This document shows, in pieces, positions 8,272 through 25,178 of a stretch of 64,000 nucleotides of DNA (the first letter of the stretch is position 1; each line of letters opens with the position of its first letter). This DNA comes from Chloroflexales bacterium ZM16-3 (GTDB taxonomy: Bacteria; Chloroflexota; Chloroflexia; Chloroflexales; Chloroflexaceae), in assembly GCA_004138175.2 (NCBI GenBank), contig RYFE02000005.1:1-64000 (forward strand), read 5' to 3'. Under the pieces are notes generated by a model, which did not search any database, was not told the DNA's origin, and saw nothing but the letters and a program-made list of their open reading frames with translations. Made by a program: the position numbers and the translations under genes.

Positions 8272-9115
8272 TCTGCCAGCGACGCAGGTCGCCCAGCCGC
8301 GACGACATACCACCTACGAGATCGAGATCTCTCTCGTGGCAGTCGGCGCTATCACCGGGCTATACCTGTGGGCCTCTCGCGATGGCACCCCCGTCTCCAG
8401 CGGGCTCTTCGGCCACAGCCTGGGCGTGATCGGCTTCCTGCTGATGCTCTCGACCGAGACGCTCTACTCGCTGCGCAAGCGCGCGCGCGGACGGACCTAC
8501 GGGCGGATGAGTACCTGGCTCCAGTGGCACATCGTCACCGGGATCGTCGGCTCGTATATGGTGCTGCTGCACACCGCCTGGCAGTTCAACGGCCTGGCCG
8601 GCGTAGTGACGCTGCTGACGGTGGTGGTGGTGGGCAGTGGCATTGTTGGCCGCTACCTGTACACGGCCATCCCGCGCACGGTGGAGGGGGCCGAGCTGAC
8701 TCTGGGCGACCTTGAGGAGCAGCTGGCGGCGGGGGCCGCCCGCCTAGAGATCCTCGCCCGCCCGCGCGCTGCGCCGGGCGAGCAGGCAGCCCGGCTGCGG
8801 CTCCCGCCCCTGACCGCCGCGCCCGGCGGCGCGATCGCCAGCGTGATCGTGCGCCCGCTGATCAGCTGGCGTGACCGGGCTGCCCTGCACCGCGCCCTTG
8901 ACGATCTGGGCAGCCAGGACCAGGCCACCAGCGATGAGCTGCGTCGGCTGATCGGCGAGCGCCACCGCCTGCTGCGCCAGATCGAGCGACTGGCCATAGC
9001 CCGCCGCCTGCTCGCCCTCTGGCACACCGTCCACATCCCGCTCGGCGTCGCCCTGTTCATCCTCTCCTTCGTGCATATTGGTGCCGCGATCTATTACGCG
9101 ATGCTCTTGCATTAA
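8255..9115 (+). CDS. Membrane cytochrome b-like protein
   Basis: A 286-residue membrane protein with about five hydrophobic segments: ISLVAVGAITGLYLW, FGHSLGVIGFLLML, WHIVTGIVGSYMVLL, GVVTLLTVVVVGSGIVG, and a C-terminal VALFILSFVHIGAAIYYAM. Conserved-looking histidines lie in or beside helices (HSLG, WHIV, LLHTAW, WHTVHIPLG, FVHIG), the pattern of bis-His haem b ligation. A cytoplasmic helical insert of about 110 residues separates helices 4 and 5. I prefer ATG 8255 (GGGAG at 8243-8247) over 8237; either overlaps the oxidoreductase stop. By context it would link the flavoprotein to the multihaem cytochrome across the membrane; family identity is inferred. Confidence 0.72.
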   Translation: MPITHNLPATQVAQPRRHTTYEIEISLVAVGAITGLYLWASRDGTPVSSGLFGHSLGVIGFLLMLSTETLYSLRKRARGRTYGRMSTWLQWHIVTGIVGSYMVLLHTAWQFNGLAGVVTLLTVVVVGSGIVGRYLYTAIPRTVEGAELTLGDLEEQLAAGAARLEILARPRAAPGEQAARLRLPPLTAAPGGAIASVIVRPLISWRDRAALHRALDDLGSQDQATSDELRRLIGERHRLLRQIERLAIARRLLALWHTVHIPLGVALFILSFVHIGAAIYYAMLLH

Positions 9116-9125
9116 GACAAGGTTT

Positions 9126-9160
9126 CGGGAGTCAAGATTCGGGAGTCAGGGGTCGGTGCC
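9126..9160. repeat. Degenerate cgggagt heptamer copies
   Basis: Two cgggagtca-type units and a ggggtcgg remnant sit in the 113-bp gap before the multihaem cytochrome, related to the gggagtc family at the window start. Confidence 0.6.
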
Positions 9161-9228
9161 GCCGCATCAGTAAGCCATGCACGACACCTGACGGTAAAGC
9201 TCTCTGAAGCCTTGTCTAAGGAACGACT

Positions 9229-10464
9229 ATGAGCCGCCTCGGCTGCCTCACACCATTCGGCATCGGCGCCGGCATTATCGCCGTGCTCGCCGTGATCGTC
9301 GCCGCCCTCCTTGGCGGCGGGTCGATGTTCAGCCCCGGCCCCCTAAACTCCCAGACGCGCGTGGGCGTCACGCTGGGTGGGGTCGCCTCACACGCCGCCA
9401 TCGGTGGCAACTGCGCCGCGTGCCACACCGCCCCCTGGGATTCGCAGGGCATGGCCGGGGCCTGCCTCACCTGCCACACCGACATCCAGGCCCAGCTCGC
9501 CAGCCCGAGCACGCTCCACGGCGCGCTGCCCGACGGCGCTTCCTGCCTGGGATGCCACACCGAGCATAAGGGGGAGGCCGCCAACCTCACAAACACCGAT
9601 CTGACCAACAGCTTCCCCCACGAGCAGCTCGGCTTCTCGCTCGCGGCCCACAAGCGCATGTCCGACGGGAGCGACTTCACCTGCGCCGACTGTCACACCG
9701 CGCTAGATCAGACCCCGCGCCCCATAAATGCCTACTCCTTCGACCAGGCGACCTGCGTGAGCTGCCATGTGGGCTACCAGCTCGGCTTTATCCGCCAGCA
9801 CCAGGCCGACTTTGGCGACAACTGTCTGAGCTGTCACGACGGGGCCGACCGCTACAGTGGGTTTGACCACGCCGCACTAAGCTTCCCGCTGGAGGGCAAG
9901 CACATCGAAGTGAGCTGCCAGCTCTGCCACGCTCGCGCCCGCGCCCCGGCCGACTTTAAGATCGCCGACAGCACCTGCCTAGCCTGCCACAAGGACAGCG
10001 ACATCCACCAGGGAGCCTATGGCACCGACTGCGCCAGCTGCCACACGCCCGCCGGATGGGATCAGGTCACCTTTGACCATGCCAAGACGGCATTCCCGCT
10101 GACTGGGGCGCACATCGAGGCGACCTGCGCCAGTTGCCACAGCGCCCACGTCTACAAGGGCACGCCCACCAGCTGCGTGTCGTGCCATGCCGAGCCGCAG
10201 GAGCACCTCGGCCAGTTTGGCACCGACTGCGCCACCTGCCACGTGACCAGCGCCTGGGAGAATGTGATCTTCACCCACACCTTCCCGCTCAACCACGGCG
10301 GTCGCGGGCAGATCGCCTGCGCCACATGCCATACCAACCCGCCGCCGCAGCAGTACAGCACCTACACCTGCTACGAGTGTCACTCTCAGTCGAGCGTGGC
10401 ATCGGAGCACCGCAAGATCGCCGACTACACCGACTGTATGCGCTGCCACGCCGACGGACGGTAG
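9229..10464 (+). CDS. Membrane-anchored 15-haem c-type cytochrome
   Basis: A 411-residue protein with one N-terminal membrane anchor (about residues 11-30, GIGAGIIAVLAVIVAALLGG) and an exported domain with fifteen CxxCH motifs: CAACH, CLTCH, CLGCH, CADCH, CVSCH, CLSCH, CQLCH, CLACH, CASCH, CASCH, CVSCH, CATCH, CATCH, CYECH and CMRCH. Many are in a repeating FDHA..FPL.G.H...C..CH pattern with extra histidines that can serve as distal ligands. It should be a periplasmic-side or surface electron conduit. AAGGA precedes the ATG. It ends the four-gene redox operon and is followed by a good terminator. Confidence 0.93.
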   Translation: MSRLGCLTPFGIGAGIIAVLAVIVAALLGGGSMFSPGPLNSQTRVGVTLGGVASHAAIGGNCAACHTAPWDSQGMAGACLTCHTDIQAQLASPSTLHGALPDGASCLGCHTEHKGEAANLTNTDLTNSFPHEQLGFSLAAHKRMSDGSDFTCADCHTALDQTPRPINAYSFDQATCVSCHVGYQLGFIRQHQADFGDNCLSCHDGADRYSGFDHAALSFPLEGKHIEVSCQLCHARARAPADFKIADSTCLACHKDSDIHQGAYGTDCASCHTPAGWDQVTFDHAKTAFPLTGAHIEATCASCHSAHVYKGTPTSCVSCHAEPQEHLGQFGTDCATCHVTSAWENVIFTHTFPLNHGGRGQIACATCHTNPPPQQYSTYTCYECHSQSSVASEHRKIADYTDCMRCHADGR

Positions 10465-10492
10465 TGATTAATATCTGGCGCAGGGGTATAAG

Positions 10493-10520
10493 GAAGCCTC
10501 GTCGGAAACGACGAGGCTTC
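10493..10520 (+). terminator. Rho-independent-like terminator after the cytochrome operon
   Basis: Twelve-bp arms gaagcctcgtcg / cgacgaggcttc close a GAAA tetraloop, followed by ttgctgctgg. The T-tract is short. Confidence 0.75.
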
Positions 10521-10537
10521 TTGCTGCTGGTGGCAGT

Positions 10538-10662
10538 CTATAGTGGCTCAAGTTGTCAAGACGTGGATTGGTAGTGGTAATAGTTTATGGCTATAGTGGC
10601 AACTGCCTATAGTGATAAGATAAACGTTGTTTCTGCATAGGCTGTTTGCTTATGCAAGCAAA
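10538..10662. promoter_or_regulatory. Repeated CTATAGTG motifs and a palindrome upstream of the HTH gene
   Basis: CTATAGTG occurs three times, at 10538, 10591 and 10607, and a palindrome tttgctt-atgc-aagcaaa lies at 10645-10662. These sit 90-215 bp before the HTH gene, in a locally AT-richer stretch, and could be operators. No clear promoter pair was identified. Confidence 0.35.
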
Positions 10663-10751
10663 GCTAGTAGCTGGTGTGAAAGAACTACGGGTAATGCTAG
10701 TCCGAATAGCGTAAGCGACATTTTTCTGATACCCACCCATGGAGCGTAGCT

Positions 10752-10991
10752 ATGAGCGTACACCCTGCTCAGCCACCTATCCTTACCGTTGCAGAGGTAG
10801 CGCAGTACCTCCGCGTGAGTGAGACCACTATCTGGCGCTGGTGTAGTAGCGGCAAGCTCCCCGCATTTCGTATCGGCAGAAGCTGGCGGGTGCGGCAAAG
10901 CGATCTAGAGGTGCTGATCAAAGGGCAGCCTTGGGCAGATCCCACGACGGGTTCGGCCCCAGAGGAAACGCACCCTGATTTGCTGCGTTAA
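10752..10991 (+). CDS. Excisionase-family (MerR-like) helix-turn-helix protein
   Basis: A 79-residue DNA-binding protein with the helix-turn-helix domain of the excisionase family: TVAEVAQYLRVSETTIWRW, then GKLPAFRIGRSWRVRQSDLE. The W-R-V-R and K-L-P-A-F-R-I-G positions are typical. Such proteins are found both on mobile elements and as chromosomal regulators; no integrase is beside it here. It is followed by the secreted glycosidase gene in the same orientation after 93 bp and could regulate it. Confidence 0.85.
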   Translation: MSVHPAQPPILTVAEVAQYLRVSETTIWRWCSSGKLPAFRIGRSWRVRQSDLEVLIKGQPWADPTTGSAPEETHPDLLR

Positions 10992-11084
10992 CCGTCTGTG
11001 ACTGGTGCAGCGTCGGATAGCGCCCGAACATGTAGGTTCAGATTGACCTAAGATATGAGTGTCTGAAACTTGGAGGCCATCACT

Positions 11085-13490
11085 ATGCATCGTCTGCTCC
11101 GCGCGACTATCGGGTTGGCACTACTCATCACTTTGGCACTATCGCATCAGAGTGTCCGATCTGCCCCTAGCTATGCACCTGGTGAATCGGCGTTTGGCGT
11201 CAATAGCCATATTGCCTCGCGCTATGGGGTCTATGAGACTCTAAGCGCACCGCTAGAGGTCGTCAGCCAGAGTTCAACGGGGTGGGTGCGCGAGGACTTT
11301 CAGATCTCTCGGGTGGAGCCGCAGCGGGGCCAGTTCGACTGGAATTGGTCTGACCAAGTGATCTCGGACTATGCTCGGCGCGGGATCAATGTGCTTGGTA
11401 TCCTCAATGGCCCTACGCCGGCATGGGCTGCAGCTGGGGGCAATGGCGGCGATTTTTTTCCGCCTGACCCCCAGGCATTCGCTGAGTTTGCCAGCGCGGT
11501 CGTCACGCGCTATAAGGATCGCATTCACTACTGGCAGGTCTGGAATGAGCCTGATAATGGGATCTACTGGCGGCCTCAGCCTAACCCTGCCGCGTACGCT
11601 ACGCTTCTGAAGACGGTTTCCAGTGCGATCAAGGCGGCCGACCCGAGCGCACAGGTGCTATCTGCCGGGGTTGTCTCACCTGAGCCTGCCACGAGCTTTC
11701 TCCAGACCATGGCCGATAATGGCGCATGGAACTCCTTCGATATTATCGCAATCCACCCGTATACAGATCCGCGCAGCCCCGAGGATGGCCAGATCGGATC
11801 TGCCGGTGTTGGCCAGGTTAAGGCGCTGGCCGCCCGGCTGGGCCAGAAGCCGATCTGGGCCACTGAGTATGGCTGGTCTACTGGAACCGCCGACCGTGGC
11901 GGCGCCAATCAGGTGAGCGAGGATACTCAGGCTAACTACCTGGTGCGCGGCGCGGCTATGCTGCGGGCGGCAGGTGTTGATCGGGTCTTCTGGTATAACC
12001 TGAAAGACAACCATCCTGGCGATGGCCTGGGCCTGCTACGCTACGGCACCGGCAACACCGACTATGGACAGCCAAAGCCCTCCTTCCTGGCCTTCAGAAC
12101 ACTCAATCAGCAGCTTGTCGGGACAACCCCTGGCGGGATGCTTGAACTGGGTCAGCGGTCGACGATTACTGACTTTGAGAGCTTTGGGTCTTGGAGGCGT
12201 GGGAACGAGCCAAATGGCACCTTTACTCAGAGCAGCGCACAGGTGCATAGCGGCAGGTTCTCCGGCCAGCTCAGCTACAACTTCCCGAGCGCAGGGAACG
12301 ACTATGTGGTCTTCTCGCCCGCCGCGCAGCCGACCATTAGCGGTAGCCCCTCGCAGCTTGGCATCTGGGTCTACGGCGATGGTAGCGGCCACGCGCTGAA
12401 GGTCTGGCTGCGCGACAATGAGGGCGAGACGCTCCAGTTCCGCCTGGGCTTTGTTGGGGCTGCCGGCTGGCAGTTCTTGTCGACGCCTATCAACGGCGCG
12501 GTGGAGCCTTATAATCGGGTCAGCGGAGGAGGGAACCTACGCCTTGACCTGCCAGCCCGCCTGGTGTCGATCGTGCTAGACGACGAGCCTGATAGCAAGA
12601 CTGGCTCTGGCACGATCTATCTCGATGATCTGAGCGCAGTGACCGGCCCCGAGGCATATGGCGCGCGCTTTGTGCAGGGCGGGAGCGTTGTCGATGTGAT
12701 CTGGGCCCCGCAGGTTACTGAGATCAACCTGCCGACCAGCTCGGCGCAGGGGACGCGTGTCGAGATCTGGGGTGAGACGAAAACGGAGGTTGCCAACAAC
12801 GGATACTTCACCTTCGGCGTTGGCCCGAACCCGATCTTCCTGCGCCATGTGCCGGGTCAGGGACAGACTTCGACACCTCCTACTACTCCAACCACCCCGA
12901 CCGCACCCCCGACTAACTCGCGCTGTTTCCCCGAGACCGGCTTCTGCATCGCCGGGGCTATTCGCGACTACTGGGAGCAGAATGGTGGCCTGCCGGTCTT
13001 TGGCTATCCAATCGCCGCGCAGGGTGAGGAGATGATCGAGGGCCGCCCATTCCAGGTTCAGTGGTTTGAGCGTAACCGGCTAGAGATCCACCCCGAGAAC
13101 CAGCCACCTTATAATGTACTCCTGGGACGTCTGGGCGCGGATCGCCTGAGCCAGCAGGGGCAAGACTGGACGCTCTTCCCCAAGGGGACGCAGCAAGCCG
13201 GCTGCCGCTTCTTCCCGGAGACTGGGCATTCCGTCTGTGGCGAGATCTTGGCCGCCTGGCGGGCGAACGGGCTTGAGCTGGATGGCCGATCCGGCAAGAC
13301 CGAGGGCGAAAACCTGGCCCTGTTTGGGCTACCGCTGAGCGAGCCTCAGGTCGAGACCCTGAGCGATGGCCGACAATACACGGTGCAGTGGTTCGAGCGG
13401 GCACGATTCGAGTTGCACCCGGAGAATGCACCGCCCTATAATGTTCTACTCGGCCTGCTTGGGCGCGAGACGCGTGACGGGATGAAGTAG
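11085..13490 (+). CDS. Secreted glycoside hydrolase (TIM barrel) with two C-terminal repeats
   Basis: An 801-residue exported protein. A signal peptide covers about residues 1-29. The catalytic domain resembles GH39/GH5-like clan A enzymes: W-N-E-P-D holds the likely acid/base Glu and ATEYGWS the likely nucleophile Glu. A beta-rich carbohydrate-binding-like region (about 360-530) follows, with FSGQLSYNF and GTIYLDDLSA. After a Pro/Thr linker come two copies of an approximately 80-residue unit: CFPETG..., a GLPVFGYPI-type segment present in the first copy, VQWFER.R.E.HPEN and PYNVLLG.LG. I start at the ATG 11085 with GGAGG at 11072-11076. The target glycan cannot be named. Confidence 0.85.
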   Translation: MHRLLRATIGLALLITLALSHQSVRSAPSYAPGESAFGVNSHIASRYGVYETLSAPLEVVSQSSTGWVREDFQISRVEPQRGQFDWNWSDQVISDYARRGINVLGILNGPTPAWAAAGGNGGDFFPPDPQAFAEFASAVVTRYKDRIHYWQVWNEPDNGIYWRPQPNPAAYATLLKTVSSAIKAADPSAQVLSAGVVSPEPATSFLQTMADNGAWNSFDIIAIHPYTDPRSPEDGQIGSAGVGQVKALAARLGQKPIWATEYGWSTGTADRGGANQVSEDTQANYLVRGAAMLRAAGVDRVFWYNLKDNHPGDGLGLLRYGTGNTDYGQPKPSFLAFRTLNQQLVGTTPGGMLELGQRSTITDFESFGSWRRGNEPNGTFTQSSAQVHSGRFSGQLSYNFPSAGNDYVVFSPAAQPTISGSPSQLGIWVYGDGSGHALKVWLRDNEGETLQFRLGFVGAAGWQFLSTPINGAVEPYNRVSGGGNLRLDLPARLVSIVLDDEPDSKTGSGTIYLDDLSAVTGPEAYGARFVQGGSVVDVIWAPQVTEINLPTSSAQGTRVEIWGETKTEVANNGYFTFGVGPNPIFLRHVPGQGQTSTPPTTPTTPTAPPTNSRCFPETGFCIAGAIRDYWEQNGGLPVFGYPIAAQGEEMIEGRPFQVQWFERNRLEIHPENQPPYNVLLGRLGADRLSQQGQDWTLFPKGTQQAGCRFFPETGHSVCGEILAAWRANGLELDGRSGKTEGENLALFGLPLSEPQVETLSDGRQYTVQWFERARFELHPENAPPYNVLLGLLGRETRDGMK

Positions 13491-13498
13491 GCTTGTAT

Positions 13499-13527
13499 GC
13501 CAGGGCCGCCCAAGCGGCGGCCCTGGC
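13499..13527 (+). terminator. Stem-loop after the glycoside hydrolase gene
   Basis: Twelve-bp arms gccagggccgcc / ggcggccctggc with a 5-nt loop, 9 bp after the stop. There is no T-tract, so termination is uncertain. The rest of the 179-bp gap shows nothing clear. Confidence 0.5.
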
Positions 13528-13669
13528 CGCGCCCGCTCTATTAGGGCAGAGCTGTGGCGGGTATGTGCTCCAGGCTCCGGTGCCCGCGCTTGTCTGAGAT
13601 CGCTTCGCTATGGAAAATGCTCTACGTACCACAGCGATGTCGTCTGGGCTGAAGGGGACTTTTAAACGT

Positions 13670-16372
13670 ATGACAACGCAGATCCTAGAGCCGGGGACGG
13701 TCGTCTATGATCGCTACCGCGTGGTGCGACTCATGGGGCAGGGGGGCATGGGTGCGGTCTACGAAGTGGTTGACCAGCGGCTCGGCAATACTCTGGCCCT
13801 CAAGCAGATGACGGTCACTGGCGATCAGATGAAGCACGCCTTTGAGCGTGAGGCCCAACTGCTCGCCGAGTTGCGTCATTCGGCGCTGCCCAAGGTGATC
13901 GATCACTTCAGTATTGCGGAGGGAACCTTTCTGGCGATGGAGTTTATCTCTGGCGATGATCTCGCCACGATGCTCGATGAGCGCCAGAATGAGCCCTTCC
14001 CTGTCGATATCGTGCTTGCCTGGGCAGAACAACTTCTCGACGTACTACACTACCTGCACTCTCGGGCCAAGCCGATCATCCACCGCGATATTAAGCCCCA
14101 GAATCTCAAGCTGACGCCCGAGGGTGCGATTATTTTGCTCGACTTTGGTCTGGCAAAAGGCACATTGCTCCAGCAATCGCAGACCCAAGGGATGCAGAGT
14201 ATTTTTGGCTACACCCCGCAGTATGCGCCACCAGAGCAGATCCAGGGGTCGGGCACCGATCCGCGCAGCGATCTTTACTCATTGGCGGCGACTCTCTACT
14301 GCTTGTTGACGGGTATTCCCCCAGAGGGTGCCCTCGTCCGGCTCGCGAGTACCGCTAGCAGCCAGCGCGACCCGTTGCGCTCGGCCCACGCGGTCAACCC
14401 GCGGGTGCCGGTTGCGTTTAGTGATCTGCTTCAGCAGGCGCTGTCGCTGAGCGCAGCGAGCCGCCCTGCCAGCGCATATGAGATGCGGGCCACCCTTCAG
14501 AACAGCGATCTCCGCACCTCTCGCTTGACCGCTACTACGCGCCCGCAGTGGATCTTGCCCGTAAGTATTGGCGGTGGGGTCGTGCTGCTGGTGGCGGTGG
14601 TAGCGGCGATTGTTTTGGGGATGGGGGCGGGCGCGCCTGCCGCCGCCCCCACGGCGAGTAGCGCTGCCATTGCCCCAGAGTCCACGGTGACAGCGCTGGT
14701 TCGCGCAAGTGACGTGGTGCCGCCCGATGGTGCGTCTGCCACCGCCACCGCAGAGGCGGATGTGGCTCTCGCCAGTGCCACCTCCCAGGCAAAGGCAGCT
14801 ACCGCTAGTGCCGTCGCCGCCGCTCAGGTAGCAGATGACCTCGCGACGGCCAGCGCCGTTGCCCTGGACAAGACCGCCGTGGCAGTGGATATGGAATCCA
14901 CGATGGTCGCGCAGATCACTGCTATCGCTGGTGATAGCGCCCGCCCGGCCAAGCACAGATCAGACGAACTGGGCACCGCGAGCACTAGCTATGACCCCGC
15001 TTTTGAGCCTAAGCTGCTAGAGAGTGGCTATACCAACAATATCGTCACGGTGCAGGGGCACCGAGTCCTTCAGCCCAGTCAGTCCGAGCCGATCCTTCAC
15101 ACCTGGGTGCGTGACTTAGACTACGCCATGAATGGCTACAGCTACGCGCTAGGCAATATGACGCTCTTGCGCGACAACACCCAGCTCTTTCTTGACCATG
15201 TGGAGGATAACGGGATTGTCCCCGATGTGTTTACCGCACGCGGCTATGATTCCAACGGGGCGTGGGACAGCATGCCGAACCTGATCCACGCGACCTATGC
15301 CTATGTTGCGAAGACGGGCGACCGCGCCTTCTACCAGAAGAACCAGCAGAAGTTGCACTGGGTAGGCGATTGGATCGCTAGCCTCGACAGTGATGGCGAT
15401 GGCCTGCCGGATCGTGACGAGTACCCGAACGGCTACTATAATTCGATCACCAATAGTGTCCGCCACACCTATGCCCTTGCGATGTTCTATAGCGCATTTC
15501 GTGAGCTGGCGGAGCTGGATCGCGCGATCAATAGTGACGGCGCGCTCTGGGATCAGCGCGCTGAGAGCCTGCGTAGTGGATTTAACCGCCCCTTTAATAG
15601 TGGTGGCTACTGGGTTGCTGGCCAGGCTTGGCCGGTTGCCTGGCGTGATCCCGGCCAGGAGCCGGTGTCGACGCTGGAGACCTTTGGGGTCTTCGAGGCG
15701 CTGCGCGCTGGCCTGATCGCACCCGGCGATGACCACTACCCAGAGCTGATGCGTGCGCTGCACGAGCGATTGCCCGACCTGATGAAGGGGCAGACCCCGC
15801 TGCGGCTGGCCTTGGATGGCTATGCCAAGGAACTGCTGGTGCCAGCTGCCCGCGAGCAGTGGAAGCTCGATGCGAGCGCCCCGTGGATCGTCGGCCCTGC
15901 CGCGCTCGCCTACACTGCGGCGGGCTACCCAACCGATGCGCAGAGGCTGATAGAAGCCTACAAGCAGGCTGCGGGGCCAGATGCGCCGAAGGTGGTGCAG
16001 CTCGCTGCGGTGAATAGCACCGGGAGTGAGGGGCAGAGCGGAGCTTGGGGTAGCGCCGCCTGGTTCATGGCGATCTATGGCGGACATTATGGCCTAACCA
16101 TGACTCCATCCGCGTTGATTGTGCAGCCTCGCCCCTTTATTTCTATCCCTGCGGATACGGTGCAGAACCTGAGCTACCAGGGGGCGCTCGTGCAGCTATC
16201 GCTAAATTCTGCCGCGAAAATCTATCAGATCAGCGTTGATCGGCCTACCGCTGTTATTCTCCGCCCGATGGGCGACGCGACCCTCCTCCAGGTCGATGAT
16301 GGCCCGGAGCAGTCCGCCGCAACGATGGTGCTTCAGCCAGGTCAATCGTATCTGGTGCGAAGCCTTCCGTGA
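13670..16372 (+). CDS. Ser/Thr protein kinase fused to an extracellular six-hairpin glycosidase-like domain
   Basis: A 900-residue fusion. Residues about 10-265 are a canonical bacterial Ser/Thr kinase: glycine loop MGQGGMGAVYE, LALKQM lysine, IIHRDIKPQN catalytic loop, LLDFGLAKG, YAPPEQ. One membrane helix (about 294-320) follows, then an Ala/Thr-rich stalk, then from about residue 437 an (alpha/alpha)6-type domain with SSYDPAFEPKLLESGY-like opening, TWVRDLDYAMNGYSYALG, DSDGDGLPDRDEYPNGYYNS and GGHYGLTMTPSALIVQP. The outer domain closely parallels the separate lipoprotein encoded at 17766. It may sense or cleave glycans and signal inward. I start at ATG 13670 with AAGGGGA upstream; earlier in-frame starts at 13610 and 13637 add only unstructured residues. 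Family of the glycosidase-like domain is inferred. Confidence 0.82.
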   Translation: MTTQILEPGTVVYDRYRVVRLMGQGGMGAVYEVVDQRLGNTLALKQMTVTGDQMKHAFEREAQLLAELRHSALPKVIDHFSIAEGTFLAMEFISGDDLATMLDERQNEPFPVDIVLAWAEQLLDVLHYLHSRAKPIIHRDIKPQNLKLTPEGAIILLDFGLAKGTLLQQSQTQGMQSIFGYTPQYAPPEQIQGSGTDPRSDLYSLAATLYCLLTGIPPEGALVRLASTASSQRDPLRSAHAVNPRVPVAFSDLLQQALSLSAASRPASAYEMRATLQNSDLRTSRLTATTRPQWILPVSIGGGVVLLVAVVAAIVLGMGAGAPAAAPTASSAAIAPESTVTALVRASDVVPPDGASATATAEADVALASATSQAKAATASAVAAAQVADDLATASAVALDKTAVAVDMESTMVAQITAIAGDSARPAKHRSDELGTASTSYDPAFEPKLLESGYTNNIVTVQGHRVLQPSQSEPILHTWVRDLDYAMNGYSYALGNMTLLRDNTQLFLDHVEDNGIVPDVFTARGYDSNGAWDSMPNLIHATYAYVAKTGDRAFYQKNQQKLHWVGDWIASLDSDGDGLPDRDEYPNGYYNSITNSVRHTYALAMFYSAFRELAELDRAINSDGALWDQRAESLRSGFNRPFNSGGYWVAGQAWPVAWRDPGQEPVSTLETFGVFEALRAGLIAPGDDHYPELMRALHERLPDLMKGQTPLRLALDGYAKELLVPAAREQWKLDASAPWIVGPAALAYTAAGYPTDAQRLIEAYKQAAGPDAPKVVQLAAVNSTGSEGQSGAWGSAAWFMAIYGGHYGLTMTPSALIVQPRPFISIPADTVQNLSYQGALVQLSLNSAAKIYQISVDRPTAVILRPMGDATLLQVDDGPEQSAATMVLQPGQSYLVRSLP

Positions 16373-17769
16373 CAACCCATCCTGTGCCAGATCTTCGCCG
16401 TTCTGCCATCCCCATCGCCCTGACGATTATGCTGGGCCTGGCCCTCGATGTGACCGGCTCGCTGCATGTCTATGGGTTGAGCGCGCTGATGGGCCAGAAG
16501 CTCGCAACGGGTACCAGCCTGCTGCTGTTTGGCATTGCGTTGAGTTGGGTGGCGGTTGCCTCACGAGTGGATCTTGCTCTGCCTCGTGTGACAGGTATGG
16601 GGGGGCTGGGATTTCAGCGCCTCTTGACCTGGCTGCTGCTGCTGGCATGGCTTGCCACGGTGCGCAGCTGGCTGCTCATGGTATCGCCGCATGCATCAGT
16701 GCTGGGGCTATGTATCGCAGGCTGCGGTCTGCTGGCGCTGGCGCTGGCCATACGCTGGCCTCCCCATCCTCTCTGGCTCGTGGGAGGAGCGGCCCTGCTT
16801 GGAAGCATTGTGCGGGTTATGAGCTTTGCCTCTGTGCCGATAGACCCCGCGCATGGCGATATGCTTCCTTTGGTGCAGGGAGCCATCGGACATCTCCTGG
16901 CTGGCCAAAGCCCCTATGCGATGTACGCGATGCCATGGGAGGTGCCGCTTACCTATCTCCCGCTGACATGGCTGGCCTACCTGCCACCCTACCTCCTTGG
17001 GGCAGATCTGCGTATCACGAACCTGGTTGCTGAGCTGAGTGTGGGGCTTGCGTTGGCATGGCTGGCCCATACCACAGGTCAAGTGACAGGTCTGTCCGTG
17101 ACTGGGCTCCTGATCTGGGCATGGCTCTTCTTACAACCGTCAGCCCTGAGCTGGTCGCTGGCAACAACCGCACCTGTTCAGTGGGCGCTGCTGATCGCCC
17201 TGCTGGTGCTCCTCAGCACCGATCATGTCAGGATGTCTGCGATCATGCTTGGGCTCTGCGTGGCGGCAACCCCGCTGGTCAGCGTTATCATCCCTTTTGC
17301 GTTGCTGCGCTGGATGCGGCTGGGTGGCTGGCGGCTGGTGCTACGCTGCGTAGGCATTGCTGCGCTGCTTGGCGTGTCCCTCATTGCCCCATTTCTGATC
17401 TGGGCACCGCAGCTGTTTATCTTCGGGGTCTGGCGCTGGTTCAACGACAATGATCTGTACCCGCGTCTGCGCTGGGACATGGATCAAACCTGGGCACGCA
17501 TGATCGGATTCAGCGGGATGTTCTGGCGGCATAAGCTGGTGGGCCTCTTAAAGCCGATCCAGGCAGTGCTGCTGCTTAGCACTGCCGCCCTCTATCACCG
17601 GGGCGGCAGCACCACGATGGGTATGGCACCCTATGTTACGGCAGCGTTCCTGTTCTTTACCCTGTTCAATCCCGTTCTTTGGCCCTATCTGTATAATCCG
17701 GCCCTTCTGGCAGCCCTGGTTTCAATAACACCTCTCTGGCGGGCACAGACACAAAGGAGCATTGCATGA
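16369..17769 (+). CDS. Polytopic membrane protein, GT-C glycosyltransferase-like
   Basis: A 466-residue integral membrane protein with about 10-12 hydrophobic helices. The region PAHGDMLPLVQGAIGHLLAGQSPYAMY followed by VPLTYLPLTWLAYLP resembles the first long loop of GT-C (GT39/GT87-type) polyprenol-sugar-dependent glycosyltransferases, where an Asp is catalytic. The GTG start overlaps the stop of the kinase-glycosidase gene (GTGA), and its own stop overlaps the next ATG (ATGA), so the three proteins are translationally coupled. A role in building or modifying a surface glycan handled by its neighbours is an inference. Confidence 0.65.
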   Translation: MTTHPVPDLRRSAIPIALTIMLGLALDVTGSLHVYGLSALMGQKLATGTSLLLFGIALSWVAVASRVDLALPRVTGMGGLGFQRLLTWLLLLAWLATVRSWLLMVSPHASVLGLCIAGCGLLALALAIRWPPHPLWLVGGAALLGSIVRVMSFASVPIDPAHGDMLPLVQGAIGHLLAGQSPYAMYAMPWEVPLTYLPLTWLAYLPPYLLGADLRITNLVAELSVGLALAWLAHTTGQVTGLSVTGLLIWAWLFLQPSALSWSLATTAPVQWALLIALLVLLSTDHVRMSAIMLGLCVAATPLVSVIIPFALLRWMRLGGWRLVLRCVGIAALLGVSLIAPFLIWAPQLFIFGVWRWFNDNDLYPRLRWDMDQTWARMIGFSGMFWRHKLVGLLKPIQAVLLLSTAALYHRGGSTTMGMAPYVTAAFLFFTLFNPVLWPYLYNPALLAALVSITPLWRAQTQRSIA

Positions 17770-19484
17770 GACCAACCTTGTGGGCAGCACTGCTGATCTC
17801 TATAAGCCTGATCATTGCGTTGGTCGGCTGCGAGCTAGAGTCCATGGATCGCATGCTTTCTGCCACACCGATTGCTATTGCACCCTCCCAAGCAGTGACT
17901 GAGTCGCTGACTGAACCTGTCTTACCCGCCACGCCTGTTGCTGAAACGTCAACACCGGCTCTTAGTCAGCAGCCAACCGCGAGCCCTACGATCATACTGC
18001 CCTCGCCAACCTTCGCCCTTCTCCCCGTCCGCCCACGAGACTTTCAGAATGCCTCGTCGAGCTACGACCCCGACACCGAGGCGCTGCTGCTGGAAAATGG
18101 CTACCAGGCAAATATCATTAATGTTGAGCCTGGCCGACGCGGACTGCGCGCCAGCCAGCGCAGCTACGCCAACAGCATCTGGACGCGCGATCTCGACTAC
18201 GCAATTAGTGGCTACAGCTATGCGCTGGGGGATATGCGCGTGATGCGGGAGAATATTGAGCTTTTTCTCGCCCGCGTTGCTCCAGACGGGATCGCGCCCG
18301 AGACGATCTATATTCAGGGTAGTCGGCTCGATTATGAGAACCGGCAGGCATGGGATAGCCTACCGAATCTGATCCACGCGATCTATGTCTACAGCGCCAA
18401 GACAGGTGATCGTGACTTTTACCAGGCCCAGCGCGCCACCGTTCTTCTGATTGGGCAGCGTATGGTTGCGATGGATAGTGATGGTGATGGGTTGCCCGAT
18501 GACCAGAACTTCCCCTATGGCTACTATGACTCGCTCTCGAATAGCGTCATGCACACCTATGCGATTGCTAAGTTCTATGCGGCCTACAATGAACTGGCTG
18601 AGCTAGAGCAGATCGCTGGTGGTGACAGTCTCCCCTGGGAGCTGCGTGCGGCGCAGCTGCGCGCAGGGTTCCATCGCGACGTTAGTGAGGGTGGCTACTG
18701 GCTCCCCGGTCAGCTCTGGCCGATTGCCTGGCTACAGAGCGATGGTAGCCCGGTCAATATTTTGGAAACCTACGGGATCTTCTCTGCCTTGAGGAATGGC
18801 CTGATCGGGCCTGTCGATGGAGAGCGCTATCATAGCCTGCTCACCGTGCTCCATGACCGGCTGCCTGAGCTGATTGACACGCCGACACCGATGCGCCTGG
18901 CGCTCGGTGGCTACGAGAAAAGTATGCGTCGGCCTGTCGACCCGCCCGTCCCGATCTGGATGCTTGATGCCAGCGCCCCGTGGGTTGTCGGGCTGGCCGC
19001 ACCAGCCTACGCCGCCGCCGGGTATCGCAATGATGCGCTTACCCTCATGCAGGCGTACACGGCGATGGCCCAGACCACGACCCCCCCCGTGCTGGAATTT
19101 GCCGCAGGCCCAGATGCGCGCTACGGTGCCGGGAATAGCGGCGATGGCGGGCGCACATGGGACAGCGCCGCATGGTTTAGTGCGGTCTATGGTGGGCACT
19201 ATGGCCTGACTATGACCCCAGCGGCGCTGGTTGTTCAGCCCTATCCGTTTTTTGACCTCGCCGCCGACGGCGTTCAAAACCTAAGCTATCAGGGTGCCTA
19301 TGTCCAGATGACCCTTGATGTTGGCAGCATGACCTACCGCATCCTGGCTGATGAGGCAATTCATGTACGGCTGCGCCCCATGGGCGCAGCGGTTCAACTG
19401 CGCCTCAATGGGGGTGATCTTGTGAGCGAGGTATCGCTGGTGCTCCAGCCAGGGCAGGAATATGTGGTCGAGAGCATCTTGTAG
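17766..19484 (+). CDS. Lipoprotein with six-hairpin glycosidase-like domain (paralogue of the kinase ectodomain)
   Basis: A 572-residue predicted lipoprotein: hydrophobic signal then LVGC lipobox with Cys at about residue 21, a Pro/Thr-rich stalk to about residue 95, then the same domain as the upstream kinase ectodomain. Matching landmarks are SSYDPDTEALLLENGY, WTRDLDYAISGYSYALG, DSDGDGLPDDQNFPYGYYDS, LDASAPWVVGLAA, GGHYGLTMTPAALVVQPYP and a C-terminal VLQPGQEYVVESIL. Similarity runs the full length of the domain, so it is a local duplication that either gained or lost the kinase part. The gene ends 3 bp from the convergent lipoprotein gene at 19488. Confidence 0.8.
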   Translation: MRPTLWAALLISISLIIALVGCELESMDRMLSATPIAIAPSQAVTESLTEPVLPATPVAETSTPALSQQPTASPTIILPSPTFALLPVRPRDFQNASSSYDPDTEALLLENGYQANIINVEPGRRGLRASQRSYANSIWTRDLDYAISGYSYALGDMRVMRENIELFLARVAPDGIAPETIYIQGSRLDYENRQAWDSLPNLIHAIYVYSAKTGDRDFYQAQRATVLLIGQRMVAMDSDGDGLPDDQNFPYGYYDSLSNSVMHTYAIAKFYAAYNELAELEQIAGGDSLPWELRAAQLRAGFHRDVSEGGYWLPGQLWPIAWLQSDGSPVNILETYGIFSALRNGLIGPVDGERYHSLLTVLHDRLPELIDTPTPMRLALGGYEKSMRRPVDPPVPIWMLDASAPWVVGLAAPAYAAAGYRNDALTLMQAYTAMAQTTTPPVLEFAAGPDARYGAGNSGDGGRTWDSAAWFSAVYGGHYGLTMTPAALVVQPYPFFDLAADGVQNLSYQGAYVQMTLDVGSMTYRILADEAIHVRLRPMGAAVQLRLNGGDLVSEVSLVLQPGQEYVVESIL

Positions 19485-19487
19485 TGC

Positions 19488-20582
19488 TTACCGCCAGGAT
19501 GCCAGCATGATTGCGCTGCCCTTCGACGGGACGCCTCCCCCGCCAGGGACAACCTGACCATTAGGATAGCGGACAGAGACCGTCACCTCTTGCCCGTCAC
19601 CGATGCCACACGCCCGTGCGTTGCCGCCACCGTCGAAGTTCCCGCCTACGCGCAACCCATCGACCGTAAACGTCCAACCGCTGGTGCTGATCCCGGATAT
19701 TCTGATTGAGATGCAGCTCGGGGTGTCGTTGTAGTTCAGCACGCTAAAGCGTAATTTCTTCGCGGTTGCCGCCGTGGATGTGGTTATGGCATTGATTCGC
19801 GTGGTAATGCGCGAGACGCAGGCGGTGGCTGTGTCAGACTCCTCGATTTCTTTGGCCTGCTTGCAGTAGCCGAGCGCCTTCTCTAGCGGATCTTTGGCGT
19901 TCGCATCCTGCTTCTTCGTCGCCTCGTAGGCCGCCGCCGCCGTTAGCAGTGCATCCCTTTCGAGCGGATTCAGCCCAGGGAAGTCGGGCTGATCGTTACG
20001 AAATGCCGCAAGCTGCGTCACGAGTGTGTCCGCATTACTCTGGCGCGTGGCCAGGTCTCCGTCCGCTTCCGCCAGCTGCTTGAGCGCGGTTAGTTGATCA
20101 TATTGCGCGATGAATGTGGCCGCCGCCTGGCTCTGTGCCAGCGCTGCGGCGTAGGTTGGGACATCGGGACTCGTCAGCGCCAAGCCATTGTTGAGCCGGT
20201 CAATTGCCAGCGAGAACGACGCGGCGAGCTGATCTGAGGGGCCGGTTGCCGCAGTGATGCTCTGTTGCCCCCATGCGAGGTAGGCATCTGCAAGTAAGCT
20301 GCTGGCCTCTGGGTTGTCGAGATTGCCTGCGTAGACCTTGCTAAACAGCGTGATCGCGTACTCAAATCGACCCTCGCTCAGCGCCTGCTTGCCAAGCACA
20401 ACGTCGGGGTTCTCAGTGACGGGCACGCTTGTTGGTGCCGGGGTGCCAGTGGGGGCCGCAGTCGGGTTGATGGTTGGGATAACCAGCGGCGTCACTGTTT
20501 CTGTTGTCGCGGTTGATAGGCCACCACATGCGGTGAGCAGGCTTGTGAGCAGGGTGATTAGCAAGATGATTCGGTTGCGCAT
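19488..20582 (-). CDS. Lipoprotein, last gene of the type VII-like run
   Basis: A 364-residue predicted lipoprotein: MRNRIILLITLLTSLLTACGG gives a signal peptide with lipobox Cys near residue 19, followed by a Thr/Pro-rich linker. Residues about 60-250 are helical and Ala-rich, with TPR-like features (LGKQALSEGRFEYAITLFSKVY). The C-terminal 90 residues look beta-rich (SVLNYNDTPSCISIRISGIS). No known family was recognised. I prefer the ATG at 20582; an upstream ATG at 20597 would overlap the PP2C stop. Position suggests co-transcription with the phosphatase gene. Confidence 0.7.
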   Translation of the reverse strand: MRNRIILLITLLTSLLTACGGLSTATTETVTPLVIPTINPTAAPTGTPAPTSVPVTENPDVVLGKQALSEGRFEYAITLFSKVYAGNLDNPEASSLLADAYLAWGQQSITAATGPSDQLAASFSLAIDRLNNGLALTSPDVPTYAAALAQSQAAATFIAQYDQLTALKQLAEADGDLATRQSNADTLVTQLAAFRNDQPDFPGLNPLERDALLTAAAAYEATKKQDANAKDPLEKALGYCKQAKEIEESDTATACVSRITTRINAITTSTAATAKKLRFSVLNYNDTPSCISIRISGISTSGWTFTVDGLRVGGNFDGGGNARACGIGDGQEVTVSVRYPNGQVVPGGGGVPSKGSAIMLASWR

Positions 20583-20589
20583 CGTATCC

Positions 20590-21939
20590 TCAGTCATCTG
20601 GTTGTTTATGGAGTAGTGCCGGGATCGGTGGTGCCAGGATCGGTGGTGCCAGGATCGGTGGTGCCAGGATCAGTGGTGCCAGGATCGGGCCAGGATCGGT
20701 GATGCCAGGATCGGTGGTGCCAGGATCGGTGGTGCCAGGATCGGTGGTGCCAGGATCGGTGATGCCAGGATCGGTGATGCCAGGATCGGTGGTGCCAGGA
20801 TTTGGTGTAGAGCTTACCGTAGTCGTGGGTGTTGTATTGACAACCTCCCTAGTCTGGGTGCGAGTCGGGCGCTTGGGCGGCACTGGGGTTAGGGTTGAGG
20901 TTGCGGTTGGCGTGGATGTCGGTGTGGATGTCGGTGTGGGTGTTATCGAGGGCGCAATTGTGCTGGTCTGCTCAAGCAGCAGGGCAGGTGTACTGGTAGC
21001 TGGCAGGAGCGTTGAAGTCTTCGGCAGCGGTGTCACCGTCGCATCAAATGCTGGCACTACTTCTTGCGCTAAGGCTGCGCGATAGCGCGCATACACTGCG
21101 CCGCTGCCAATGGCGATGGCAAGGATCGCCAGTAGCGTGGCGATCAGCAATCCCGGTCGGCGGCCTTTTGGTGACGATACAGCATAGCCAATGATGGCCG
21201 CGCTCACATTGTCTTTAGAGCCGGCTGCTATCGCGGCCCGTGCGATGTCTTCGGTTGCCCGCGTTGGCTCCGCGCCACGGGCCAGCTGCGCAAGCTGATC
21301 ATCGCTCAGATGTTTGCAGACACCGTCGGTACAAAGGAGAAGCCGCTCGCCGGGCTGGAGCAGCACATCAATAAAGAGATCGGGGACACTCTCTAGCGCC
21401 AGAGCATCGCCCAGAGCGTAGGTGAGGCGCAGCGCCTGCTTATGCTGATATGCCTCAACTTCATTAGTTCCGCTGCTAATCAGCTGCTCGGCATAGGTGT
21501 GATCACGGGTAATCTGTCTTGCCGGACCTTCGGCTGGAATTCGATAAGCCCGGCTATCCCCGATGCTTGCAATCGTGCCCTCTGCGCGGCCATCGTGCAG
21601 GCGAAGCACCAGCGCCACCAGGGTTGTCCCGCTGACTTTGTAGTCGGGGTTGCCCTGGCGCAGGCTGTTGATCTCACGCGCTACCTGTGCTATCCCATGC
21701 TCAAGCGTGAGCGAATCGCGAGACGGTGCCTCGCTCAGGTACGTGTGCAGGATCGTAACAGCCTGCTCGCTGAAGAGCTTCCCATCGATCCCGCCGCCCA
21801 TCCCATCGGCAACGATCGCAAACAGCCCGTCGTTCGTAAACTCAAGGCCAATCGAGTCCTCATTTCTTTGGCGACCGCCTTGATCTGTGTAGGTGGCACC
21901 AATCAGCGTGCCGGTATCTCGGGAGGAAGTTGTCGTCAT
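20590..21939 (-). CDS. PP2C-family Ser/Thr phosphatase, membrane-anchored, with repetitive tail
   Basis: A 449-residue protein. Residues about 8-240 form a PP2C (PPM) domain with intact metal-binding motifs: QRNEDS, VADGMGGG, LLLCTDGVCKHLSD and GSKDNVSAAII. A membrane helix follows (about 260-280), then a Thr/Pro-rich stalk. The tail consists of seven T/I-TDPG units, then LAPPI units, because an 11-bp unit within a 15-bp tandem repeat changes the frame. The extracytoplasmic tail is therefore low-complexity. It should dephosphorylate targets of the neighbouring kinase; this follows from synteny and family. Its start lies 20 bp after the kinase stop. Confidence 0.92.
   Translation of the reverse strand: MTTTSSRDTGTLIGATYTDQGGRQRNEDSIGLEFTNDGLFAIVADGMGGGIDGKLFSEQAVTILHTYLSEAPSRDSLTLEHGIAQVAREINSLRQGNPDYKVSGTTLVALVLRLHDGRAEGTIASIGDSRAYRIPAEGPARQITRDHTYAEQLISSGTNEVEAYQHKQALRLTYALGDALALESVPDLFIDVLLQPGERLLLCTDGVCKHLSDDQLAQLARGAEPTRATEDIARAAIAAGSKDNVSAAIIGYAVSSPKGRRPGLLIATLLAILAIAIGSGAVYARYRAALAQEVVPAFDATVTPLPKTSTLLPATSTPALLLEQTSTIAPSITPTPTSTPTSTPTATSTLTPVPPKRPTRTQTREVVNTTPTTTVSSTPNPGTTDPGITDPGITDPGTTDPGTTDPGTTDPGITDPGPILAPLILAPPILAPPILAPPIPALLHKQPDD
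20617..20802. repeat. 15-bp minisatellite within the PP2C gene
   Basis: About thirteen units of ccaggatcggtggtg with minor substitutions (tgatg, cagtg). One unit near 20683-20693 is only 11 bp (ccaggatcggg), which switches the frame read in the PP2C gene. Confidence 0.92.
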
Positions 21940-21959
21940 TCAGAATCTCGTGTGGCAAA

Positions 21960-23225
21960 CTACGGTTTCGGCGCGGCCACGGCCGGCGTCGACGTAGGTG
22001 GCGATGTGGTCACAGCGGTTGGGGCCACCGTTAAGCTCGGGAGCGGAGTGACGGTGACACGCACGGGCGTAGGCGTGTTGGTGGGCTGCGGGGCGGGTGT
22101 CCCCCATCCAAACCCCATCGCTCCGACCAAGACGACACATAGCACCACCAAGGTTGCTGCCGCAGTCCCGATCTGACGCATAATGTTGGGCGGACGGGGG
22201 CCGCGCAGCTTGGCGGGCAGATTCCGCTCAGGTACCTCGTCGAGTCGCGCGATCACCTCGGCTGCTGTCGGACGATTCGCTGGGACGGGGTCAATCATCG
22301 CCATCACAAGCGCGCACAGTGGTTCAGATAGATGTGGGGCTTTCTCTTGAAGCTGGGATAGAGGAACAGAGCGCGTCCGATTGAACTCATCGGTGACACG
22401 CCCGGTCGGCACTGCGGCGCGTCCGGCCAGTAGCTCATAGAACATAACCCCCAGGCTGTAGATATCGGGTGGGGTGTCGATCCCTTTAGGGGTTGGGCCT
22501 CCGTGTCGCTCGGGGGGGCGATAGCGCGGCTGCCCCAGCTGCTCACGATTTCGCGTGTACCGAGTTGAGTCAGCAGCTGCGAAATCGACGACCACGCATT
22601 CGGGCATTGTCGGGATCGGCCAGCCCAGCGGTCGACGGAGCAGCACATTGGTTGGCGCAATATCGTGATGGACGATCTCCGCAACCGTATGGAGGTGATG
22701 GAGCGCTTCTGCCACCTGCCGCGCGATCAGCACAGCGACGCCGGTTGGGAGTGCCTCATCGCCATACCGCCGCATCAGATCGCGAACCGAGCCGCCTGCC
22801 TCATAGTTCAGAATGAGGCAGGGGTAATTCTCCTGTAGCCCGCCCTCATCGTCTTTAAATGTATCGAAGCACAGCCCCGGGCGGCGACCGCGCTGCGGTG
22901 ATATGTCGGGCGGGATCTTAAAGAGCTGAATGACTCGCGGGTGAAGAATACCTGGGTTGCTCAGGAAGGTGTGCTCATCACGCAGGTTGTCGATGCTCGC
23001 CGGGTGCGGGATTTTGATCACACACAGGTGATATGCGGCGACCCGCTCTGGAGTCAGGCGCTGCTTGAGCAGACGGGGCATCTGCTCGGCTGGAGGTTGC
23101 CCCTCGCGCCACAGGCGCCCAATATAGACACGGCCCTGACCACCCTCGAAGATCGGCATCAGGATCTCATACTCACGAATGCGGTGTCCCGGCGGCAGCT
23201 TTGGGATGAGGAGTGGTTTGCTCAT
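21960..23225 (-). CDS. Atypical Ser/Thr protein kinase, C-terminal membrane anchor
   Basis: A 421-residue kinase-fold protein: glycine loop FEGGQGRVYIGRL, CVIKIP lysine, catalytic loop VHHDIAPTNVL, metal site VVVDFAAAD, and RPPERHGG in the activation region. Compared with canonical kinases HRD is HHD, the catalytic-loop lysine is Ala (D-I-A-P-T-N), and DFG is DFA. The catalytic Asp and Asn remain, so activity is possible but not certain. A single helix at about residues 350-370 (TLVVLCVVLVGAMGFGWG) and a Thr/Pro-rich tail follow. The ATG overlaps the stop of the upstream VWA-FHA gene. Confidence 0.87.
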   Translation of the reverse strand: MSKPLLIPKLPPGHRIREYEILMPIFEGGQGRVYIGRLWREGQPPAEQMPRLLKQRLTPERVAAYHLCVIKIPHPASIDNLRDEHTFLSNPGILHPRVIQLFKIPPDISPQRGRRPGLCFDTFKDDEGGLQENYPCLILNYEAGGSVRDLMRRYGDEALPTGVAVLIARQVAEALHHLHTVAEIVHHDIAPTNVLLRRPLGWPIPTMPECVVVDFAAADSTRYTRNREQLGQPRYRPPERHGGPTPKGIDTPPDIYSLGVMFYELLAGRAAVPTGRVTDEFNRTRSVPLSQLQEKAPHLSEPLCALVMAMIDPVPANRPTAAEVIARLDEVPERNLPAKLRGPRPPNIMRQIGTAAATLVVLCVVLVGAMGFGWGTPAPQPTNTPTPVRVTVTPLPSLTVAPTAVTTSPPTSTPAVAAPKP

Positions 23226-25171: not shown

Positions 25172-25178
25172 TGGAGTC

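Follow-up and report, generated by a model that had tools for sequence, protein, structure and literature searches.

The window considered in this work is a stretch of 64,000 nucleotides from Chloroflexales bacterium ZM16-3 (GenBank assembly GCA_004138175.2, contig RYFE02000005.1, positions 1 to 64,000 of the forward strand). It encodes at positions 13670–16372 a Ser/Thr protein kinase with a glycosidase-like outer domain, and at positions 17766–19484 a lipoprotein that carries a sibling of the same domain. The kinase protein is probably a receptor-type Ser/Thr kinase with a pseudo-glycosidase outer domain, paired with an active sibling and belonging to a module for the building and trimming of a glycan. 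The gene order, the predicted folds, the kinase motifs, the class-specific loss of residues, the purifying selection and the recurrence in relatives have been established directly. Two of the observations reported here, namely that only the kinase copy lacks putative catalytic residues and that a PslG-like gene lies upstream, were absent from the initial annotation of this DNA, which had been made from the sequence alone.

Four genes follow one another head to tail on the plus strand, encoding a PslG-like glycosidase (11085–13490), the kinase (13670–16372), a glycosyltransferase of the GT-C fold (16369–17769) and the lipoprotein (17766–19484). The PslG-like gene is separated from the start of the kinase gene by a gap of 179 bp, and the two following joins are overlaps of 4 bp each, between the kinase stop and the GT-C start (16369–16372) and between the GT-C stop and the lipoprotein start (17766–17769). 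The next gene, at 19488–20597, lies on the opposite strand. The coordinates and reading frames of the initial annotation were verified as correct, and the ATG at 13670 fits the start of a relative's protein (locus L020, ...MTTLLLEPG) better than a longer open reading frame (ORF) beginning at 13610. Scans of positions 10400–20700 yielded seven promoter-like sites against 4.0 ± 2.0 in shuffled sequences and four terminator-like sites against 5.6 ± 2.4, neither of which was usable, and a plasmid search returned no match.

The kinase protein, 900 aa in length, comprises a cytoplasmic kinase domain (aa 1–293, positions 13670–14548), a predicted transmembrane segment (aa 294–318, 14549–14623), which is the one hydrophobic stretch discerned by eye between the kinase and the outer domain, an Ala/Thr-rich linker of about 120 aa read from the sequence and extending up to 14989, and the ectodomain, which starts at aa 441 (14990–16369). 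The Hanks-type hallmarks are present, namely the catalytic Lys45, the HRD motif with Asp140 and the DFG motif with Asp158, and the Pfam Pkinase model (PF00069) matches with an E-value of 1.1e-38, its best stretch covering aa 16–267. Together with the fold model described below, these features bear out the initial annotation of a canonical Ser/Thr kinase with a six-hairpin glycosidase-like outer domain. The same annotation placed that domain in the position of the usual PASTA or other sensor, which, as regards PASTA, holds for the window kinase, where Pfam gives no PASTA match at E-values up to 1 and the NCBIfam PASTA-kinase model NF033483 reaches 183.5 bits against a cut-off of 450, covering the kinase part only. 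As a general statement it fails, because the related protein at locus L023 (12087–12845, minus strand), whose kinase lies beyond the contig end, has a PASTA domain (3.1e-12) in the linker ahead of its pseudo-glycosidase domain; a single protein thus combines the two wall-reading domains. The kinase region has 36 matches within the genome of the window itself. In six of the nine loci with the best kinase paralogues of this genome (L086–L094), the C-terminal parts were read by eye and resemble beta-propeller-like repeats, NTPase-like modules and others, seemingly unrelated to the glycosidase domain. The lineage of the window kinase seems to swap its C-terminal parts readily.

The lipoprotein (572 aa) begins with a short hydrophobic signal followed by a putative lipobox, LVGC, with Cys22 at 17829–17831, as judged by eye. 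Its glycosidase domain with a C-terminal beta domain, the putatively active copy, spans 18063–19481 and is 52% identical to the kinase ectodomain; these two are the only matches of the family at E ≤ 0.001 in the 6.27-Mb genome. The structural model of the lipoprotein domain (m44eccc3781cd, built from 17 sequences) has a mean predicted local distance difference test (pLDDT) score of 85.9 and a predicted template modeling (pTM) score of 0.91. In VIA comparisons, it resembles the glycoside hydrolase (GH) family 100 invertase InvB (Z 31.9, root-mean-square deviation 3.5 over 354 residues), GH78 Rha-2 (Z 30.9 over 403 residues, including the C-terminal beta domain), TxGH116 (Z 28.3) and GH63 (Z 27.7), and its best Foldseek match has an E-value of 2.9e-13. 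The ectodomain is thus predicted to adopt the (alpha/alpha)6 glycosidase fold. A non-carbohydrate fold, which the initial annotation had named as one outcome that would overturn its proposal, is rejected by the Foldseek and VIA matches to glycosidases. Among the 23 family members aligned here, the GH116 catalytic model matches 16 (best 6e-6) and the GH78 model nine (best 9.2e-7) at E-values up to 0.1.

The two classes of this domain differ in conserved residues. The alignment, designated A2, contains 23 ectodomains, of which 14 are standalone copies (two of them, L032 and L033, partial) and nine belong to the kinase class; residues are numbered according to the lipoprotein domain at 18063–19481. 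In seven of the nine kinase-class copies (the window, L020, L022, L026, L028, L073 and L074), the ectodomain is joined without interruption to a kinase or kinase-like domain. Position 156 is Asp in 13/13 standalone copies covering the site and Asn in 9/9 kinase-class copies, including 7/7 uninterrupted fusions; in the window, it corresponds to Asp255 of the lipoprotein (18528–18530), the putative catalytic acid, and to Asn591 of the kinase protein (15440–15442). Position 345 is Glu in 13/13 standalone copies and is replaced in all nine kinase-class copies by Gln (five) or Arg (four), the window residues being Glu444 of the lipoprotein (19095–19097), a candidate second catalytic residue, and Gln777 of the kinase protein (15998–16000), which sits in the loop leading into the final helix of the barrel. 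E92, R94, M300 and F346 also separate the two classes fully, and D361 and D367, present in 13/13 standalone copies, are each found in one of nine kinase-class copies. Altogether, 133 columns are invariant in the standalone copies, and nine of these are absent from every kinase-class copy, including V292 and R364, which are gaps in most of them. The acidic residues D43, D45, D98, E235 and D302 are kept in 9/9 kinase-class copies, across which 120 columns are invariant. The catalytic acids, whose presence the initial annotation had proposed to check, are putatively present in the lipoprotein type and lost in the kinase type. Standalone copies with a readable start possess a lipobox, a signal-like segment or an N-terminal hydrophobic anchor, as seen by eye. 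Standalone copies in several genomes (L021, L024 and L029–L032) carry an extra C-terminal domain of about 250 aa, which by eye resembles the end repeats of the PslG-like protein in the window.

The functional meaning of positions 156 and 345 depends on their placement relative to characterized enzymes. In the predicted model, D156 lies between barrel helices 5 and 6 and E345 between helices 11 and 12, with the helices numbered by us from the model, and inverting enzymes of the (alpha/alpha)6 fold carry their acid and base in these same loops. A phmmer alignment of the lipoprotein domain with TxGH116 is ungapped over the acid loop and places Asp on Asp593 (E about 0.001). The top Protein Data Bank (PDB) match of the kinase ectodomain is 8i5r, a TxGH116 sequence (E 0.016), with Asn aligned on Asn; this entry is presumably the D593N variant, as its sequence suggests and as the count of four entries, equal to that of the D593N structures described in the corresponding paper, also indicates. 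The TxGH116 alignments stop short of the region of the nucleophile Glu441. D593 is the acid/base residue of TxGH116, and the D593N variant has a Km for cellobiose of 0.284 mM vs 0.203 mM for the wild type and a kcat of 0.00146 vs 36.1 per s, a drop of more than 10^4-fold, with cellobiose and laminaribiose contained in its crystals (PMC10167657). A comparison by hhalign with four GH100-like Chloroflexota proteins gave 92% (E 5.5e-7, 330–354 columns), a comparison with Escherichia coli YgjK (GH63) produced no usable alignment, and a profile search of the PDB with alignment A2 returned nothing at an E-value below 0.05. The role of D156 as an acid is thus suggested by the GH116 alignment and by its loop position, and that of E345 as a base by its loop position, because the sequence alignments failed to place it.

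The evolutionary analysis indicates that the altered copies persist under constraint. In a tree of 21 full-length domains, the kinase-class and standalone copies form the two sides of one branch, with the root unknown, and the support for this branch is moderate (83/98; 86% of 200 bootstrap trees). The kinase-class side is divided into K1 (the window, L020, L022, L023 and L025) and a group of K2 and K3, both divisions being strongly supported. K1 and K3 contain canonical kinases that are 31% identical by hhalign, and K2 (L026 and L028) contains a divergent kinase-like domain without a Pfam match, for which hhalign gives 90.5% (E 1.4e-6) against K1 and K3 combined, vs 35% and 70% against K1 or K3 alone. 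In both K2 proteins (L026, 6095–8941; L028, 8512–11373), the sequence HCDLSGANL stands in place of the HRD loop, and the fused domain is the same pseudo-glycosidase. Three kinds of kinase domain are accordingly joined to the pseudo-enzyme clade, which could reflect either one fusion followed by exchange of the kinase part or more than one fusion of the pseudo-enzyme. The ratios of nonsynonymous to synonymous substitution rates (dN/dS), which are rough values because they come from a simple counting method with dS of 0.6–1.9, are 0.094 (the window copy vs L020), 0.080 and 0.143 for kinase-linked ectodomains and 0.091 and 0.103 for standalone ones. Purifying selection is similar in both classes, so the dead copies are not decaying, and selection maintains the kinase-linked domain despite the loss of its putative catalytic residues.

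Several points weigh against interpreting the kinase-linked copies as enzymes turned receptors. The single split in the tree means that the residue changes may represent one event rather than repeated losses. All nine lost columns lie in loops of the active-site face (9/60 vs 0/73 elsewhere, Fisher 5e-4), which speaks for the interpretation, but these figures serve as a description and not as a test, because the loops were drawn from the model helices after the class-specific columns had been seen and because the sequences, being related, lack independence. The E-values given above also show that D156 is placed by weak GH116 alignments, and in the GH100-like alignment both D156 and E345 are out of register with conserved Asp/Glu residues, E345 by three residues. 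The similarity of the window proteins to named GH families remains below the Pfam cut-offs: for GH116 (PF04685), they score 16.8–17.2 bits against 26.3, and for GH78 (PF17389), the kinase (P0001) scores 18.3 bits against 24.5 and P0003 has no match. Two of the nine copies assigned to the kinase class are not seen as uninterrupted fusions, since the contig of L023 ends before the kinase domain, leaving the linker and ectodomain visible, and in L025 the kinase and the ectodomain are encoded by neighboring ORFs that differ in frame and are separated by 26 nt. On an activated aryl glucoside, D593N of TxGH116 lost only 140-fold (PMC10167657). As to L025 (10920–13921), its frame break may be a genuine frameshift or an error of the metagenome-assembled genome, the two being indistinguishable.

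The two other proteins of the cluster are predicted to act on glycans. The middle protein, of 466 aa (16369–17769), is a GT-C transferase according to its predicted fold (pLDDT 82.2), with VIA Z scores of 24.5 for GPI mannosyltransferase I (GPI-MT1), 20.9 for ALG6, 17.8 for ArnT and 15.4 for PimE, in matches that begin at model residue about 78 or 130. The GT87 model (PF09594) matches 5 of the 12 aligned GT-C proteins (best 1.7e-8), without a match to the window protein itself, which is putatively GT87-related. Asp164 (16858–16860), in a loop that follows the GT-C module's first helix, is invariant in 12/12 aligned proteins and is a candidate catalytic residue. This model, together with the coordinates and the 52% identity of the two ectodomains, agrees with the arrangement claimed by the initial annotation, in which the outer domain recurs as a separate lipoprotein, with a GT-C protein in between and 4-bp overlaps at both joins. 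The protein encoded at 11085–13490 is a PslG-like glycosidase of the GH39 type, with a phmmer E-value of 1e-28 to PslG (5bx9) over aa 55–339; its NEP and TEYGW align with NEP and TEWGW of PslG, which we take to be the acid and nucleophile motifs. Its C-terminal repeats are LGFP-like by a weak match, which scores 19.3 bits where the cut-off is 22. PslG is co-transcribed with genes for exopolysaccharide synthesis, and its loss changes polysaccharide signaling (PMC9075953).

The system recurs within a limited range of organisms. In a profile search at E ≤ 0.001, the ectodomain family was detected in 15 of 158 genomes of the class, and at E ≤ 1e-10 it was detected in 5 of 400 genomes drawn across the phylum, all five from the same order and among the 15; it was absent from all five other genomes of the genus of the window. 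Two short conserved patterns, scanned against 84,980 species genomes in the only search that covered phyla other than Chloroflexota, identified 16 loci, 14 of them titled Chloroflexi, Chloroflexota, Chloroflexales, Chloroflexaceae, Oscillochloris or Candidatus Viridilinea and two titled only "bacterium", and a single-sequence scan of a collection of genome contigs found nothing. Within the window or the fetched stretches, at least 12 of these 15 genomes have a GT-C homologue and at least 8 have a PslG-like gene, both counts being lower bounds because several stretches stop at contig ends. The order of kinase, GT-C protein and standalone copy is shared by the window genome, G026 and G006. Eight of nine genomes with a kinase-class copy also possess a standalone copy, and the ninth (G067), which is 85% complete, has only a weak second match (E 8.7e-4). 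Genomes from two families (f1 and f4) retain kinase-linked ectodomains, and the kinase domains attached to them differ. The absence of the fusion from all relatives, which the initial annotation had regarded as a ground for abandoning the idea, is thus rejected by fusions found in their loci, and chance or artefact is likewise rejected, as each ectodomain has its full length, the folds are modeled with confidence and relatives share the cluster. In a weak search of open-access literature, the titles and beginnings of abstracts of the matches listed, a minority of the total, described no bacterial Ser/Thr kinase whose ectodomain resembles a glycosidase.

In the proposed mechanism, the kinase ectodomain would have originated from a duplicated (alpha/alpha)6 glycoside hydrolase that retained its fold and several acidic residues and lost the putative acid (Asp to Asn) along with other residues of the active face. 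The GT-C protein would add a sugar from a polyprenyl-linked donor to a cell-surface or exported glycan, and the lipoprotein, acting in the exo mode, and the PslG-like protein, acting in the endo mode, would trim it. The kinase ectodomain may bind the same glycan end without cutting it, and its occupancy could be relayed across the membrane to the cytoplasmic kinase, such that the sensor would read the amount of untrimmed glycan and adjust the synthesis of the envelope or of exopolysaccharide. Glycan binding, enzyme activity, the direction of the signal, the substrate and the targets are what we infer. A more specific version, which we advance tentatively as a possibility, is a closed feedback pair, in which the lipoprotein would remove the terminal sugar added by the GT-C protein, the dead twin would measure uncut ends and the kinase would report the balance between building and trimming, the dead twin serving as a portable input module joined to three kinds of kinase. 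The interpretation of the initial annotation is supported in part. Its notion of an enzyme-like domain acting as the receptor is specifically strengthened by the finding that, among the 23 copies, those of the kinase class alone have lost the putative catalytic residues, and this under purifying selection; two refinements are that the replacement of PASTA is not general and that the putative catalytic acids are confined to the lipoprotein type. To our knowledge, the sensed ligand is known for few outer domains of bacterial receptor Ser/Thr kinases besides PASTA, and the envelope glycans of Chloroflexota have been little studied. The kinase ectodomain should bind what its lipoprotein sibling cleaves, which offers a direct route to a ligand.

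Alternatively, the kinase ectodomain could function as a catalytically inactive protein-docking domain that contacts its lipoprotein sibling, the GT-C protein or some other protein of the envelope, with the kinase phosphorylating the complex or being regulated by it. The joint encoding of the copies with 4-bp overlaps, and the same order in G026 and G006, would fit such an arrangement, as would the loss of E92 and R94 and the changes of M300 to Lys and of E345 to Gln or Arg, which alter the chemistry of the putative pocket besides catalysis; however, a pure docking surface has no obvious need for D43, D45, D98, E235 and D302, which are invariant in both classes, and we regard docking as rather unlikely. 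It is similarly doubtful that the module is catabolic, sensing and using a foreign polysaccharide as food in the manner of the clostridial RsgI sensors. Sensors of this kind with GH-type domains do exist (PMC12203970), and the cluster contains two glycosidases, but it also contains a GT-C transferase, and its upstream enzyme most resembles PslG, which belongs to a gene cluster for the synthesis of exopolysaccharide. Furthermore, no Pfam match to sugar-transporter families was obtained in the nine proteins scanned from 11085 to 27428. The GT-C and PslG-like genes suggest instead that the glycan is the cell's own.

The probability that the kinase ectodomain is still an enzyme, in which another residue replaces the Asp or a different reaction such as transfer is catalyzed, is considered low. 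In its favor, some GH families use unusual acids; against it, positions 156 and 345 are both lost in 9/9 copies. Acid/base mutants of TxGH116 show transglycosylation, azide and formate raise their activity, and D593N loses only 140-fold on the activated aryl glucoside, but its kcat on cellobiose falls by more than 10^4-fold (PMC10167657). Finally, that the kinase ectodomain is a functionless, decaying relic of the fusion is highly improbable, since, despite the missing catalytic residues and the separate frames of L025, it shows dN/dS of 0.08–0.14 vs 0.09–0.10 in standalone copies, has 120 invariant columns and is kept in f1 and f4 with different kinases.

Other genes flank the cluster on both sides. 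On the minus strand at 19488–27428, a TPR-like lipoprotein, a PP2C phosphatase, a second Ser/Thr kinase and two VWA-FHA proteins are encoded in a run that points towards the module and is reminiscent of VWA/PP2C/kinase triads. When these genes were used as queries, the fetched neighborhoods of the relatives gave general kinase matches only, and for that reason they are not counted in the module. The 3' part of the PP2C gene contains a 15-base tandem repeat of 12.7 copies (20616–20801), which codes for a Pro-rich repetitive tail. Upstream, positions 8237–10464 encode a membrane protein followed by a protein of 411 aa with many CxxCH motifs, which by eye is a multihaem cytochrome c.

The receptor kinase can be compared with several known systems. 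The RsgI proteins of Clostridium thermocellum are membrane sensors with an outer carbohydrate-binding or GH domain, such as GH10, and they differ from the window protein in acting on a sigma factor through proteolysis, without a kinase, and in regulating cellulosome genes (PMC12203970). The PASTA kinases (PknB/Stk1) likewise have a kinase domain followed by a membrane span, which in the window kinase is a predicted one, and an outer wall-reading domain, whereas the window kinase has no PASTA match and its relative L023 combines PASTA with the pseudo-glycosidase. The GH116, GH100, GH78 and related enzymes have the fold predicted for the window domains and, in the case of GH116, also the loop of the acid residue, although the window proteins either score below the cut-offs of the family models or give no match to them. 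The Psl cluster of Pseudomonas, for which the comparison is limited to PslG, likewise encodes a PslG-like glycosidase together with a glycan-building gene and is not known to include a receptor kinase. The tobacco protein CHRK1, beside which we know of no encoded active sibling, is of plant origin and of the chitinase type, whereas the window protein is bacterial, has the (alpha/alpha)6 fold and is accompanied by neighboring partner genes. In a review, CHRK1 is described as a receptor-like kinase whose chitinase-related outer domain lacks chitinase activity for want of a Glu, so that both proteins are receptor kinases with an inactive relative of glycoside hydrolases on the outside (PMC10573068). 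With a natural Asp-to-Asn replacement that selection preserves at a site of putative catalysis, the kinase-linked domain is a promising bacterial case of an enzyme turned receptor, in parallel to CHRK1 of plants.

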